Source: an uncultured Methanobacteriaceae archaeon (GTDB lineage: Archaea; Methanobacteriota; Methanobacteria; Methanobacteriales; Methanobacteriaceae). Taken from it: 32,227 bases of DNA. The first letter of the stretch is position 1; every line of letters starts with the position of its first letter. Of this stretch, positions 23,628 through 27,957 are shown piece by piece. The stretch covers positions 1 to 32,227 of the forward strand of contig CACZOU010000036.1 in NCBI GenBank assembly GCA_902782945.1, read 5' to 3'. The translations under genes were made by a program, and so were the position numbers. The notes beneath the pieces were generated by a model, which saw only the letters and a program-made list of their open reading frames with translations, was not told the DNA's origin and ran no database searches.

Positions 23628-24218
23628 ATGAAAACACATATAATATATTGTCATCCAAGTAATAAAAGCCTCACGTACCAGATAAAAGAAAAATATATTC
23701 AAGCACTAACAGATGTAGGAAAAGAATACACAATATCTGATTTATATGCAAAGAATTTTAACTCAGATATGACTGAGGAAGAATATCTCAGAGAATCAAA
23801 TTACACACTAGATACACCATCAAGTGACGTGTTAGAAGAACAAAAACTACTGGATGAAGCTGATAATCTAACATTCATCTTCCCAGTATTCTGGCTAGAC
23901 TGCCCATCAAAACTCGTGGGATGGTTTACAAGAGTATTCACATATGGCTACAGATATTACTCAACAGAGGGCAAAGAACAAATGAAAACATATGATAATA
24001 TAAGATTTATCATAACCATGGGCAGCGGATACAAAGATTTAGAAGCTGATGGAAAAATAAGTGCAATAAAAACAATCTTCGACGTCGATAGAATAAAAGA
24101 TAAAGCAAGAAATACACAATTCTACATCTACACTAGTACAAGTCATGATAAAATAACTGATGAAAGAAAAAGAAAAATATTAGATGATGTATATAAAATA
24201 GGTATTAATTCAAACTAG
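23628..24218 (+). CDS. NAD(P)H-dependent flavin oxidoreductase (quinone reductase-like)
   Basis: 196-residue flavodoxin-like-fold protein of the NQO1/KefF (Flavodoxin_2) type. HIIYCHPSNKSLTYQI is the FMN/FAD phosphate loop; the substrate-site motif TFIFPVFWLDCPSKLVGWFTRVF is the family's typical PLYWFSMPAxLKGWxDRV block, and GSGYKDL follows at the flavin ring. It should carry out two-electron reduction of quinones or similar compounds with NAD(P)H in the cytosol. It is convergent with the redox operon of the RiPP cassette, whose last gene ends 170 bases away, but nothing shows that they are linked. Confidence 0.85.
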   Translation: MKTHIIYCHPSNKSLTYQIKEKYIQALTDVGKEYTISDLYAKNFNSDMTEEEYLRESNYTLDTPSSDVLEEQKLLDEADNLTFIFPVFWLDCPSKLVGWFTRVFTYGYRYYSTEGKEQMKTYDNIRFIITMGSGYKDLEADGKISAIKTIFDVDRIKDKARNTQFYIYTSTSHDKITDERKRKILDDVYKIGINSN

Positions 24219-24389: not shown

Positions 24390-25004
24390 CTAGTAAGGAT
24401 CTTCTATAGCATTAACAGGACAATTTTCGTAACATGTACCACAATCAAGACAATGATTAGGCATTATATGATATGGACTTCCTTCTTCTATAGCATTTTG
24501 AGGACAGGTAGCTTTACATACATCACATTCTATACAATTATCAGTTATCACATATTTTTTATTGAAATATGTTGATTCTTCAGTGTTTATCTTGAATGTT
24601 TTCCGATATATTGGTTTTTGGGTTAAATCAAAGAATTCCATTTCTCCACATTCTACCTTAAATGGTTCTAAGATGTATCGTGCATCACCTGGATAAACAT
24701 TATTCATATACTTATTTTTTTCAAACATTTTATCTATCCATTTGTGTTGATCTTCTAATTGTTTTACTTCACCTATTATACGTACTGTTTTATTATCTTT
24801 TAATCCTACTAATGCAATGTGATTGTTTTCTTGTAATTGTTTATAGAATCTTTTTCCTCTTGCAGTTAGGAAGTATACTGTTTCTCCATCTTCTAACATT
24901 ACATCTATTACCCTACTTTGCGGATTTCCATCCTTATCTACTGTAGCTATAGTTGTATCTATTAATTCTCTTAAAAATTTTAAGCAATCCTGTTTACTAT
25001 CCAT
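24390..25004 (-). CDS. PPOX-type flavin protein fused to two-cluster ferredoxin domain
   Basis: 204 residues in two parts. Residues 1-135 are a pyridoxamine-5'-phosphate-oxidase-like split barrel (IATVDKDGNPQSRVIDVML, YFLTARGKRFYKQLQENNHIALVG), which normally binds FMN or F420. Residues 150-204 are a ferredoxin domain with C157/C160/C163/C167 and C185/C188/C191/C195, each CX2CX2CX3CP, for two 4Fe-4S clusters. It should pass electrons between a flavin-type cofactor and ferredoxin. It is the last gene of the RiPP operon: its AAGGAG lies within the last codons of the dehydrogenase gene and only 5 bases separate the two, so translation is coupled. It may supply electrons to the radical SAM enzyme or act on the peptide. 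Confidence 0.85.
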   Translation of the reverse strand: MDSKQDCLKFLRELIDTTIATVDKDGNPQSRVIDVMLEDGETVYFLTARGKRFYKQLQENNHIALVGLKDNKTVRIIGEVKQLEDQHKWIDKMFEKNKYMNNVYPGDARYILEPFKVECGEMEFFDLTQKPIYRKTFKINTEESTYFNKKYVITDNCIECDVCKATCPQNAIEEGSPYHIMPNHCLDCGTCYENCPVNAIEDPY

Positions 25005-25009
25005 AAAAT

Positions 25010-25999
25010 TTACTCCTTATTATTGATTACTACTATTTTCCCTAATTTTTTATTATTCTCTGTTACACTATGTGCTTTTCCAATTTCTTCTAATGAATAT
25101 TTATCTGCAATGATTGGTCTTATATCATTCTTGTAAATATATCTAAATATTTCATTCATCTTTTCCTGTGTTGGGTAATTACTATAGAATGATGTAAGAT
25201 ATTTATCATTTGGTATATCAATAATAGGATCGAATTTTTCTATTGTTTCTTGTCCACCAAGTATACCTGTAATGCATAAAGTTCCATGTTTTTGCAGAGC
25301 TTTGAATGATTCCTTCATAGTTAAAGGACCAAGCAGTTCAAGTACCTTACTAACACCCTCAGGAGCTAATGATAATATATTAGTTATTAGATTATCATCA
25401 TCTATGAGAGCATAGCTTGCTCCATACATACTAAGATATTTAAGCCTGTCACGGCTACGAGTAGTAGCTATTACTGTAGCACCACACCTGGAGGCTAATT
25501 GTATTGCAGCTATACCAACAGTACTACTTCCACCACGGATGAGTATAACATCCCTACTGTTTAATTCTAATGAATCAAATAAGGAACAATAGGCTGTGAA
25601 GAATGTTTCTGGAAGTGCACTGATTTCCTCTACACTATACTTCTCTGCCAGTTTTTCATCTATTTTAAAAACGTTAGATTCTGGTAGAAGGGCGTACTCT
25701 GCATAGCTTCCATCAAAGCTTCTGCCCATACCTCCCATTAATGCTACAACATGGTCTCCTATATCCAGACAACAATCTGATTTATCAACAACAACACCAT
25801 AACATTCAATACCTGGTATAACGGGCAAGTTAATATAATCCTCATCTGCCTCATATTCCCTGAGTATTAACTCTGAACGATTAAGACCAAAACCTAATAC
25901 TTCTACTAATACCCAGCCATTCTTTACTTCTGGCTTAGCTATCTCTGACACGTGTAATTGACTAGCTTCACATGTCTCGGTTAGTAATACTGCTTTCAT
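25010..25999 (-). CDS. Medium-chain dehydrogenase/quinone oxidoreductase-like protein
   Basis: 329 residues of the MDR superfamily, quinone-reductase-like branch. An N-terminal GroES-like domain (FGLNRSELILREYE, PVIPGIECYGVVV) is followed by a Rossmann domain with GGSSTVGIAAIQLASRCGA and TTRSRDR, the latter favouring NADPH. The structural-zinc cysteine lobe of classic alcohol dehydrogenases is absent. The start is ATG 25997-25999 (MKAVLLTE, the standard MDR start); AGGTGA overlaps the stop codon of the radical SAM gene. Being eight bases behind the maturase, it probably reduces or oxidises an intermediate or the peptide itself, or supplies electrons. The substrate is unknown. Confidence 0.87.
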   Translation of the reverse strand: MKAVLLTETCEASQLHVSEIAKPEVKNGWVLVEVLGFGLNRSELILREYEADEDYINLPVIPGIECYGVVVDKSDCCLDIGDHVVALMGGMGRSFDGSYAEYALLPESNVFKIDEKLAEKYSVEEISALPETFFTAYCSLFDSLELNSRDVILIRGGSSTVGIAAIQLASRCGATVIATTRSRDRLKYLSMYGASYALIDDDNLITNILSLAPEGVSKVLELLGPLTMKESFKALQKHGTLCITGILGGQETIEKFDPIIDIPNDKYLTSFYSNYPTQEKMNEIFRYIYKNDIRPIIADKYSLEEIGKAHSVTENNKKLGKIVVINNKE

Positions 26000-26007
26000 G
26001 AAATCAC

Positions 26008-27033
26008 CTATATTTTCTTCCAACACTGAGGGTCACTACTATACATAGAACCCGTATAACCATAGCTTACAGCAGGACAGCCCCTACAGAATCTTAGTAA
26101 TTCACATTTACTGCATTTCTCGAAATTCTCGTATTGTCTGTATTCATCCATCTTTCTACTGGTAAATAGTGATACAATATTTTCCTCAAAGGCATTACCA
26201 ATTAGACTGTTCATACGTCTACAAGCATATACATTACCATTTGGCAGTATTGTTACATGAGAATTACCACAGTTACATCCATCATAGATTACATCATCAT
26301 CTAAATCACTAGGGATTTCAAATAATCCTTTTTCATACAGGAATAATGTCCATAGATGATCTTTTAAATCAAAATTAGTACTGGAATCCTTGTATTGTTC
26401 ATATTTATCCCAGCATTTCTCTAAAAACTGATGATATTCCTCTGGCGTCATATGACTGTCCTCATCAAATCCTTCAGGACAATATCTTGCAAAACTATAA
26501 GTATCAACACCATGCTCTACCACTACATCAATTAATTCTGGTATTTCATCCATATTAACTTTAGAGACTGTTGTCATGATATTAACATTCATACCAGCAT
26601 CTTTTAGTACTTTAATCTTATCTAGTGTTGTATCATATGAACCAGGCATTCTGAAGTAATCATGTGTTTTTCTTAAACCATCTAGTGATAATTGGTATGC
26701 AAGGCATCCTGCATCCTTTAATTTTTCACATACTTCACTTGTTAGATGGAAGGGATTGCCCATAATACCAAATTTAATGTTATTTTCCTTAAATAAGTTT
26801 ATTAACTTCCAGAAATCTGGATGAAGTAGTGGATCTCCACCTGTGACATAAAAGAATGGTTCTCTGTTTACTATGTTACACATGTTTATACAGTTATTGA
26901 ATATATCCTCTAAATCATTAATACTTGTTGTTGTTAGATTTGTTGTATGTTCATTATTAAATATATAACAGTGTTTGCAGCGTTGGTCACATTCATCTGT
27001 TATATGCCATTGAAATGCGAAAAAATCTCTCAT
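26008..27033 (-). CDS. Radical SAM/SPASM peptide maturase
   Basis: 341 residues. The radical SAM cluster motif is C15/C19/C22 in ECDQRCKHC (CX3CX2C), followed by a GGDPLLHP SAM-binding motif and a TIM-barrel core. The C-terminal SPASM-like region carries many cysteines (DGCNCGN, YACRRMN, KCSKCELLRFCRGCP, PQCWK), enough for two auxiliary 4Fe-4S clusters. Such enzymes install thioether or carbon-carbon links in ribosomal peptides. There is no N-terminal RiPP-recognition domain; the core begins at residue 7. It lies 85 bases after the gene for the ACGS-repeat peptide on the same strand, so that peptide is the probable substrate. GAGAG is a weak ribosome site. Confidence 0.9.
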   Translation of the reverse strand: MRDFFAFQWHITDECDQRCKHCYIFNNEHTTNLTTTSINDLEDIFNNCINMCNIVNREPFFYVTGGDPLLHPDFWKLINLFKENNIKFGIMGNPFHLTSEVCEKLKDAGCLAYQLSLDGLRKTHDYFRMPGSYDTTLDKIKVLKDAGMNVNIMTTVSKVNMDEIPELIDVVVEHGVDTYSFARYCPEGFDEDSHMTPEEYHQFLEKCWDKYEQYKDSSTNFDLKDHLWTLFLYEKGLFEIPSDLDDDVIYDGCNCGNSHVTILPNGNVYACRRMNSLIGNAFEENIVSLFTSRKMDEYRQYENFEKCSKCELLRFCRGCPAVSYGYTGSMYSSDPQCWKKI

Positions 27034-27060
27034 ATATAATCTCTCTATGATAATAAAAAA

Positions 27061-27112
27061 ATAGGTTAAAAAAATGTAAAAAGGGAAAAAAGTTATTAAA
27101 AATTATTTGTTT
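27061..27112 (-). terminator. T-tracts between peptide gene and maturase gene
   Basis: Read on the minus strand, the 85 bases between the peptide stop and the maturase start contain four runs of five to seven T within about 50 bases, without a G/C stem. In archaea such tracts terminate transcription, often partially. This would give abundant peptide mRNA and less read-through into the enzymes. Confidence 0.45.
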
Positions 27113-27118
27113 TACTAT

Positions 27119-27364
27119 TTATAAGCTAATTTCACTACCACATGCAGTATTGATTTCGCTTCCACATGCTGTACTTACTTTACTTCCACAGGCTGTATTA
27201 ACTTCACTACCACAGGCAGTGCTGATTTCACTACCGCATGCTGTACTTACTTTACTTCCACAAGCAGTATTGATTTCACTACCGCAAGCTGTGTTTAAGT
27301 AGTTTTTAGAGTTTTTTGATTGGTAATAATTAGCGTTTTTAGTCCAAGAGTTTAATTTGTACAT
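27119..27364 (-). CDS. ACGS-repeat RiPP precursor peptide
   Basis: 81-residue peptide. Residues 1-23 (rich in N, K, S and Y) look like a short leader with no cysteine. Residues 24-79 are seven exact 8-residue repeats of [N/S]TACGS[E/K][I/V], with cysteines at 27, 35, 43, 51, 59, 67 and 75, and the tail is SL. The seventh position runs E,K,E,E,K,E,E. AAGGAG lies 10 bases before the ATG. Directly downstream are a radical SAM/SPASM enzyme and two redox genes. I recall an NCBI/TIGRFAM family named ACGX-repeat peptide paired with such maturases; the match has not been tested here. The likely product carries one modification per cysteine, perhaps Cys-sulfur-to-carbon links or metal sites. Confidence 0.88.
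   Translation of the reverse strand: MYKLNSWTKNANYYQSKNSKNYLNTACGSEINTACGSKVSTACGSEISTACGSEVNTACGSKVSTACGSEINTACGSEISL
27128..27295 (-). repeat. Seven tandem 24-base coding repeats of the precursor peptide
   Basis: The 168 bases encoding residues 24-79 are seven head-to-tail 24-base units. The units differ at many third codon positions (for example GCATG, GCAAG and GCAGG variants on the plus strand) while the TACGS residues stay fixed. That pattern indicates old repeats kept by selection on protein sequence rather than recent slippage. Confidence 0.9.
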
Positions 27365-27450
27365 TGTATTAATTCTCCTTTTGATTTAGTTTATTTTTTT
27401 TAATATGAGTCATATAATTCTAACTCTTATTTTATAATATTATTTTTCTC

Positions 27451-27501
27451 TTATTTAAAGAAAATGTAATCTTAATGTTACTTAGTTACTAAAAAGTTAC
27501 C
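27451..27501. promoter_or_regulatory. Divergent promoter with triple GTTAC repeats (candidate HxlR operator)
   Basis: The 194-base gap between the divergent peptide and HxlR genes holds GTTACT at 27477-27482, GTTACT at 27485-27490 and GTTACC at 27496-27501. On the minus strand CTTTAAATAAG (complement of about 27450-27460) is a TATA-like box for the peptide gene, so the repeats lie just upstream of it, at an activator or repressor position. HxlR-family sites in other microbes also contain GTTAC/GTAAC elements. Confidence 0.5.
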
Positions 27502-27558
27502 ATAATATCTAATAGTAGTAATAATATAAAGTTTTATAGTATTTAAGGATTAGATTTT

Positions 27559-27957
27559 ATGACAAATGATAAAGATGAGATTCCATGTCCTATGGAATTA
27601 GCAATTCAGTTAATTAATAAGAAGTGGGTTATTCAGATTATTAGGGACATGTTTTTTGGTAAGACTCATTTTAGTGAGTTTAAGGAGGATAAACCTGGCC
27701 TATCTAATAAGGTTTTATCTGGTTGTCTTAAGAATTTGGAAGAAAATGGTTTGATTGAGAAGAATATTTCTGATATTAATGGTGTTGTTGATATTTCTTA
27801 TAATCTTACTGATCATGGTCGTGCTTTAAATAAGGTTATTTATGAGCTTGCCATGTATACTTTGAATGAGGATATTAATAATAAGATTTATGATGATGAA
27901 CAGAAGAAAGAAATTGGTGAATATTTTAGGGATAAGTTAAATATTGATGATAATTAA
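27559..27957 (+). CDS. HxlR family transcriptional regulator
   Basis: 132-residue winged-helix regulator. The family hallmark is IPCPMELAIQLINKKWVIQIIRDMFFGKTHFSEFK, with C10 in the position of the redox- or electrophile-sensing cysteine of HxlR proteins such as YodB and HypR. The recognition helix is in LSNKVLSGCLKNLEENGLI. The gene is divergent from the RiPP operon and separated by 194 bases that hold GTTAC repeats, so it probably controls that operon, perhaps in response to oxidants or quinones. Its codons are strongly T/G-ending (GTT, ATT, GGT, AAG), unlike most genes in the window. Confidence 0.88.
   Translation: MTNDKDEIPCPMELAIQLINKKWVIQIIRDMFFGKTHFSEFKEDKPGLSNKVLSGCLKNLEENGLIEKNISDINGVVDISYNLTDHGRALNKVIYELAMYTLNEDINNKIYDDEQKKEIGEYFRDKLNIDDN

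Follow-up and report, generated by a model that had tools for sequence, protein, structure and literature searches.

A cysteine-repeat peptide cassette of the ACGX type in a Methanobacteriaceae genome, with exchangeable reductases and a putative operator shared with Zn-Macro/Sir2 operons

The window analysed here, a stretch of 32,227 nucleotides, is contig C36 of the draft genome of an uncultured Methanobacteriaceae archaeon (G000, 1.7 Mb, 91.8% complete), and at positions 24,390 to 27,957 it carries a five-gene cassette centred on a short peptide with ACGS repeats and a radical SAM/SPASM maturase. We favour, with roughly even confidence, the reading that the cassette yields a peptide with modified cysteines which is not exported and which is made as part of a thiol/electrophile stress response controlled by an HxlR regulator. 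The initial annotation had suggested a product acting inside the cell from the lack of an exporter; an internal redox role gains more weight from a putative operator, a link to Zn-Macro/Sir2 operons and a second precursor family than it did from exporter absence. The order of the genes (peptide, SPASM radical SAM enzyme, NADPH-type MDR, PPOX-ferredoxin fusion and divergent HxlR gene), their coordinates and the gaps of 85, 8 and 5 bases that separate the first four were re-derived from the window, and all agree with the first description.

Precursor peptide and maturase

The maturase of 341 residues (26008-27033, minus strand) reached 566.1 bits against the NCBIfam profile TIGR04340 (acgM; cut-off 400), covering profile positions 2-341 of 341, and its Radical_SAM and SPASM domains both exceeded their cut-offs (SPASM PF13186, 33.1 bits versus 21.5). 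Cysteines C15, C19 and C22 of the CX3CX2C motif, together with eight C-terminal cysteines (253, 255, 271, 307, 310, 316, 319 and 337), were invariant in 29 maturase sequences. Directly upstream lies the gene of the precursor, an 81-residue peptide with the leader MYKLNSW... (27119-27364, minus strand), in which residues 26-77 (27134-27289, minus strand) form a core of seven ACGS units with a period of eight residues. The initial annotation had taken these two genes for the named ACGX peptide/maturase pair, and the maturase score and the adjoining ACG-repeat gene support this; the proposed check against the NCBIfam profiles came out positive for the maturase and negative for the peptide, which TIGR04341 (ACGX-repeat peptide; cut-off 28 bits) did not match even at E values as high as 1. 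The same profile scores 36-77 bits on three bacterial peptides and one from Thermoplasmata, 12 bits on the Methanosphaera peptide of locus L040, and at E up to 1 it matched 7 of 14 Methanobacteriales precursors (best E 0.0034; two of the 14 belong to the second family described below). On sequence grounds, the window peptide is a Methanobacteriales variant of the ACGX peptide.

Of 95 distinct maturase loci, from archaea and bacteria, 88 have a Cys-Gly repeat frame, for which at least two CG were required in one frame no more than 1.3 kb 5′ of the maturase, and 85 of these 88 frames contain at least two ACG. Maturases were counted as distinct when they differed in the last 300 residues, so that close species remain in the counts. 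Among the seven loci without such a frame, L002, L066, L073 and L111 have less than 500 bases of upstream sequence, while L026, L098 and L100 have at least 500 bases and still lack it. In locus L088 (Elusimicrobia) the peptide is degenerate (GCGCSSC, TGCGS) and lies about 320 bases 5′ of the maturase, and L098 has no peptide frame. In 87 distinct peptides, 543 of the 555 core cysteines stand before Gly, the core being taken to start at the first [ASPTG]C[GC]; Ala precedes 513 of those 543, and the residue following Gly is mainly Ser, Ala or Thr. Within the seven window repeats, codon differences among the 28 A, C, G and S codons are all synonymous, and the spacers vary (N/S, E/K, I/V). The A-C-G unit thus appears conserved and the spacers variable, and since the frame also recurs upstream of 88 of 95 maturases, the repeat seems to be kept beyond chance. 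The units are spaced 8-9 residues apart in most Methanobacteriaceae peptides and paired in most bacterial ones (e.g., ACGSACGAGDK), with 2 to 11 CG units per frame. The repeats change fast, as G112, a genome of the same species as the window genome, has five (L139:8990-9205) instead of seven, while its MDR and PPOX-ferredoxin are listed as 100% identical to those of the window.

Profile searches of 150 Methanobacteriales genomes found the maturase in 33, and a peptide match in all 33. Of the remaining 117, the peptide search picked out only G077 and G080, which hold remnants limited to the leader, and G023, with a very weak match (E 0.007), so that the separation of peptide and maturase, which would have spoken against a working pair, was not found for any intact gene in these 150 genomes. 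The additional peptide copies of G118, G129 and G100 resemble cassette ends severed by assembly.

The next-best models for the window maturase were TIGR04082 (SbtM), with 183.2 bits over positions 198-515 of 516, and heme b synthase, with 136 bits. TIGR04082 also gave 163-194 bits on all six maturases scanned from other groups, where other models stayed at or below 82 bits; none of the 300 Sporomusa-class genomes searched had a true SbtM above the TIGR04082 cut-off. A structure model with a mean predicted local distance difference test score (pLDDT) of 87 had SuiB and anSMEcpe as its nearest structures, and anSMEcpe also has solved structures with Cys peptides. SbtM is reported to convert a Cys peptide to a thiooxazole with the loss of four hydrogens (PMC11002830). 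As TIGR04082 is the second-best model and SbtM acts on a Cys peptide, we infer that the ACGX maturase oxidises the Cys of the A-C-G units and, by kinship to SbtM, that the product might be a thiooxazole.

Reductase partners

The MDR-type reductase (25010-25999, minus strand, counted from ATG; the longest open frame begins at a GTG farther upstream) has ADH_N and ADH_zinc_N domains and is quinone-reductase (PIG3) like, with TIGR02824 (quinone_pig3) as its best NCBIfam model at 167 bits, below the cut-off of 296.8. It is followed by a 204-residue PPOX flavoprotein fused to a ferredoxin domain (24390-25004, minus strand; PNPOx_N plus Fer4). Neighbours were counted between -2.5 and +3 kb, with bit-score limits of our own choosing, at the 53 of 95 distinct loci that have full flanks, 42 being dropped for short flanks. 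An MDR was present near the maturase in 31 of these loci, a nitroreductase in 16, a PPOX-ferredoxin in 26, HxlR in 38, Sir2 in 14 and a macrodomain in 13. MDR and nitroreductase were never found together (0/53; Fisher p 5e-9, kinship uncorrected); the MDR is the only one of the three reductases in 16 loci and the nitroreductase in 9. Across all 95 loci, 54 have the MDR, 27 the nitroreductase, 14 neither and none both; when the limits were relaxed, an MDR plus a distant nitroreductase match turned up in L076, one of 43 loci. The Elusimicrobia loci L088 and L098 have none of the three reductases. At least 14 changes between MDR and nitroreductase were counted on a quick maturase tree, in which 32 of 92 inner branches are open, the labels include short-flank loci and the count has no shuffle comparison.

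The initial annotation had called these redox partners dedicated, which holds for the MDR. A relative with at least 46% identity was found in 30 of the 33 maturase genomes of the order and intact in one of the 117 others (G069), with broken pieces in G018 and a contig-end piece in G055, while the remaining MDRs of the order reach only 32% identity to the window MDR. A further 14 genomes, from other groups, were selected for a cassette with an MDR; in every one of them the gene most similar to the window MDR adjoins the maturase (46-57%), and only G456 has a second MDR of at least 46% (at 46%), plus a fragment. PPOX genes without maturase in G055, G105 and G007 sit at contig ends.

A further suggestion, that the reductases supply electrons to the maturase, finds no support, and the MDR was rejected as an electron supplier by inference, because MDR and nitroreductase appear to replace each other. 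As the exchange is between a hydride-transfer MDR and a nitroreductase of the flavin mononucleotide family, reduction of an organic substrate fits better than one-electron Fe-S supply, and we read the pattern as one hydride-type reduction step that would be dedicated to the ACGX system. Convergent with the PPOX-ferredoxin gene, the window also carries a gene for a Flavodoxin_2-type NAD(P)H oxidoreductase (23628-24218, plus strand).

Regulator and putative operator

The HxlR regulator of 132 residues (27559-27957, plus strand; PF01638, 62 bits versus a cut-off of 20.8) is divergent from the peptide gene. All 39 HxlR proteins found near the peptide, including that of L116, have an N-terminal Cys, which in the window protein is Cys-Pro. 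Formaldehyde-sensing HxlR proteins carry Cys-x-Lys (Cys11 and Lys13 in helix 1), within a motif region given as FNCEKEL in PMC7835342; this type was ruled out, as the window protein has Cys-Pro-Met.

A putative operator, GTWACY-N4-RGTWAC, precedes the peptide genes. It was derived from 37 upstream regions chosen by an N-x-W leader, only one of which (L052) is bacterial. GTWAC-N6-GTWAC occurs in 31 of the 37 regions versus 0.05 per shuffled set, with shuffles that preserved base content only, and the relaxed form GT[ATG]AC-N6-GT[ATG]AC in 35, missing L052 (Treponema) and L166. Scanning gaps from 0 to 15 made N6 stand out, with other gaps in at most three regions each; an operator with a gap of 5 had given nothing useful. 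The sites begin 88-224 bases 5′ of the start codon, often directly before a TATA-like stretch. In the window, the only strict match, GTTACTAAAAAGTTAC, lies at 27485-27500 between the HxlR and peptide genes, 136 bases 5′ of the peptide start codon. Many sites read TTACT-N4-AGTAA, with half-sites that resemble those of YodB, a quinone sensor of the HxlR family that binds TACT[7]AGTA (PMC8063818).

Operator matches were also seen upstream of a short PPOX-type gene in G013 and G043 (L209:5032-5733 and L212:2867-3345), and, in G119 (L224:3343-4801), beside an HxlR gene that has an old-yellow-enzyme-type gene (PF00724, 86.6 bits) after it; these perhaps belong to the same regulon.

Zn-Macro/Sir2 operons

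The strict pattern GTWACYNNNNRGTWAC has two matches in the window's own genome, and the one outside the window, at 2825-2840 of contig C32, precedes a Zn-Macro/Sir2 operon (L207:2825-4634). It ends 104 bases 5′ of the Zn-Macro gene (NF003163, 306.6 bits versus 272), which overlaps the Sir2 gene (PF02146, 28.2 bits versus 24). Neither this Sir2 nor that of the Roseburia plasmid described below, which stays under the PF02146 cut-off at 20.9 bits, had an NCBIfam match at E up to 1e-10. Being a Sir2-fold gene beside a Zn-macrodomain, the own Sir2 has the context of SirTM and would presumably have ADP-ribosylating activity.

Such a site stands before Zn-Macro/Sir2 in five of ten genomes scanned whole (G000, G112, G013, G040 and G043); the reversed pattern gave 23 matches across the ten. 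Seventy-five fetched Zn-Macro stretches, from which four of 79 Zn-Macro places (partial genes) had been excluded, held 47 strict sites in 229 kb, and 39 of the 44 sites that could be placed lie 350-450 bases before the zinc motif. The peptide and Zn-Macro/Sir2 operons are thus preceded by the same kind of putative operator. An ADP-ribosylation link based on the operator alone was weakened, as its presence before Zn-Macro genes is independent of the maturase.

Within the cassettes themselves, the 14 loci with Sir2 and the 13 with a macrodomain include none from Methanobacteriales, and the 13 loci with both are all bacterial. Zn-Macro is present in 31 of the 33 maturase genomes of the order versus 45 of the 117 without maturase, a co-occurrence that is in part kinship, since both are confined to the same four of 19 genera. 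None of ten neighbour genes from five Sir2-bearing cassettes had GcvH or LplA domains. In a Sporomusa cassette, a glyoxalase-family gene (L049:12710-13096), which fits an electrophile response, follows the macrodomain gene. DUF1848 genes stand beside Sir2 or macro genes in Sporomusa (L049:10921-11850) and Roseburia (L116:10001-10942).

Second precursor family

Ten loci carry another precursor, with TSCCIDTT repeats on an N-x-W leader that resembles the ACGX leader, adjoining an HxlR gene (L051:5234-5425, minus strand; L035:9784-10044, minus strand; L134:5804-6022, plus strand; and seven more). The profile search of the 150 genomes found it in ten genomes of one genus (g10), all with a maturase: G043, G044, G056, G057, G059, G060, G063, G068, G096 and G097. 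Loci of this type with named records are from Methanobrevibacter, and g10 is a genus of the Methanobrevibacter group. All seven members scanned were without NCBIfam or Pfam matches at E up to 0.1. In G068, where the maturase frame is open over 343 residues (locus L026), the two peptide profiles find no precursor other than one of the TSCCIDTT type, about 2.5 kb distant. The leader-only remnants mentioned above come from two genomes without a maturase. The family is a ready candidate for a second substrate of the same maturase.

Distribution and mobility

A scan of species genomes gave 116 maturase relatives, the best 80 of the 116 at 54-68% identity, from Methanobacteriales, Thermoplasmata-class methanogens, Bacteroidales, Clostridia, Sporomusa, Treponema and Elusimicrobia, and many of the host organisms are from animal guts. 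The closest named relatives of the window maturase are from Methanosphaera. On the quick tree, Thermoplasmatota occupy two separate positions among bacteria, so that transfer between domains is likely. Plasmids of Methanosphaera, Roseburia and Subdoligranulum carry the maturase; two further plasmid matches at about 25% are other enzymes, and phage records gave no match. On the Roseburia plasmid, the acgA/acgM genes named by NCBI have a divergent helix-turn-helix gene, and acgM is followed by genes for a nitroreductase, a 4Fe-4S protein, a protein-ADP-ribose hydrolase (macrodomain), Sir2 and DUF1848. In the Methanosphaera plasmid pNP174 (L117:5001-6025), the maturase is annotated in two pieces and lies a few kb from brxL of BREX.

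Proposed function and alternatives

According to the favoured reading, HxlR with its reactive N-terminal Cys would bind GTWACY-N4-RGTWAC and be released in the presence of thiol-reactive compounds. The peptide would then be made, and its N-x-W leader would guide the SPASM radical SAM enzyme, which may oxidise the Cys of each A-C-G unit by abstracting hydrogen at the beta carbon. With less certainty, the Cys would most probably become a 5-thiooxazole, as with SbtM, the nearest characterised relative. The MDR (a nitroreductase elsewhere) and the flavin-ferredoxin protein might act on the modified peptide or on its adducts, by reduction or by recycling. The product would not leave the cell and, as a multivalent thiol group, would serve as a buffer against electrophiles, oxidants or metal; the Zn-Macro/Sir2 operon for ADP-ribosylation, which has an operator of the same type, would act alongside it.

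Several observations weigh against this reading. The TIGR04082 cut-off of 350 is far from reached by the window maturase, and two of the 53 full-flank loci have none of the three reductases. HxlR is missing from 15 of the 53 loci within the range searched, and its N-terminal Cys is not specific to the cassette, as it also occurs in 12 of 13 HxlR proteins near the second precursor and in 32 of 33 farther away. In the own genome, the two strict operator matches compare with three for the reversed control. The operator precedes Zn-Macro genes at 19 of 32 loci with maturase and 22 of 40 without, three of the 75 loci having been dropped for short upstream sequence, and many Zn-Macro genes with the operator have their own HxlR gene.

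It is also possible, although unlikely, that the product is a metal-binding peptide, an anaerobic counterpart of bufferins and bulbicupramide, in which a radical SAM enzyme converts Cys-Gly to thiooxazoles that sequester Cu(I) or another soft metal. Many bacterial ACGX peptides, whose repeats of about 18 residues each contain two CG, would suit this role; however, the regulator belongs to the HxlR family, NAD(P)H-type reductases are the partners that recur, and no copper gene was recognised among the recurrent neighbour clusters, which were read by eye with no profile test.

In lanthipeptides, LanJA (an MDR) and LanJB (a flavin enzyme) act as reductases, LanJA being zinc-dependent. By analogy, the reductase could be a second maturation enzyme that reduces an unsaturated residue made by the maturase, giving a product that is possibly antimicrobial. 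Exchange of the MDR for a flavin-family enzyme and the dedicated MDR subfamily are what such a role would predict, but we consider it quite unlikely: the window MDR has GIEC in place of GHE, the signature of zinc-type MDRs, and reading the neighbours by eye recognised no recurrent exporter or protease, an ABC-type ATPase being present in 3 of 86 loci.

A bolder reading, to which we give only a small chance, holds that in anaerobes the modified ACG-repeat peptide takes the place of lipoyl-GcvH-L. It would be a peptide-borne thiol group that a radical SAM enzyme makes and an interchangeable reductase services, switched by SirTM ADP-ribosylation and its removal by Zn-Macro. The ADP-ribosylation site would perhaps be the acidic residue following most A-C-G units. 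Such a residue stands within six residues in 355 of 543 CG units; its absence from the other 188, the presence of Zn-Macro in 45 genomes of the order without maturase, an operator shared independently of the maturase and the lack of Sir2 in 39 of 53 full-flank cassettes all speak against it. If true, it would give lone SirTM/Zn-Macro pairs a substrate.

HxlR genes paired with quinone reductases or nitroreductases also exist without ACGX. Together with plasmid copies in three genera, this would allow the reductases to be passengers of a mobile stress island that do not act on the peptide; we think this improbable, since the MDR subfamily is nearly confined to maturase genomes in the order and, in the 14 genomes selected for the MDR, its best match always adjoins the maturase, G456 alone having another of at least 46%. 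Finally, cleavage of the repeats to give a small redox cofactor for the reductases, in the way that mycofactocin serves its dehydrogenases, would agree with the dedicated reductases and with 2 to 11 CG units per frame, yet it is very improbable given freely varying spacers, the two loci without any of the three reductases and no recurrent protease recognised.

Comparison with known systems

The window cassette corresponds to the NCBIfam ACGX system (TIGR04340 acgM with TIGR04341 acgA) in having a maturase above cut-off with an ACG-repeat peptide directly upstream, and differs in a peptide with a single ACGS every eight residues and another leader that TIGR04341 does not recognise. The description of this system as named but uncharacterised is in line with our literature search, which found no account of ACGX/TIGR04340 in open-access papers, subscription papers being mostly outside its coverage. 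As far as such searches reach, the Methanobacteriales peptide class, the second precursor, the reductase exchange and the putative operator are new, and the pair itself was already named. In comparison with the Roseburia cassette, the window has an MDR in place of the nitroreductase, and the Zn-Macro/Sir2 genes of its genome lie on another contig. The SbtM/SbtA thio(seleno)oxazole system (TIGR04082) shares the second-best maturase family and the action of SbtM on peptide Cys, while the window maturase reaches 183 bits versus 350 and the window peptide has no in-frame UGA.

In the extended SirTM/Zn-Macro operon with lipoyl-GcvH-L, OYE (old yellow enzyme) and LLM, a lipoyl carrier is described with reductases, induced by oxidative stress, and OYE binds to the lipoylated carrier (PMC4518038). 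A possible thiol carrier, reductases, Sir2, a Zn-macrodomain and a link to stress are common to both systems; the carrier there is lipoylated GcvH-L, whereas here a repeat peptide accompanied by a radical SAM enzyme would take its place. A 2024 Zn-Macro paper describes the targets of the other SirTM/Zn-Macro systems as elusive (PMC11490716).

Bufferins, bulbicupramide and oxazolin, which are made by MNIO enzymes, also have repeated Cys-Gly units in some cases, and no protease is reported near the bulbicupramide genes, just as none recurrent was recognised by eye here. They differ by the MNIO enzyme and by copper binding, the MNIO-made thiooxazole peptides being copper binders, while the window cassette has a radical SAM enzyme and HxlR. 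Among the window genes scanned by profile there was no MNIO match. If the thiooxazole reading holds, the ACGX system would give access without oxygen to the group that MNIO enzymes form in other bacteria, where it serves to bind copper. The comparison as a whole yields testable claims: a changed cysteine, two interchangeable reductases, the DNA site of the regulator and a stress response shared with Zn-Macro/Sir2.

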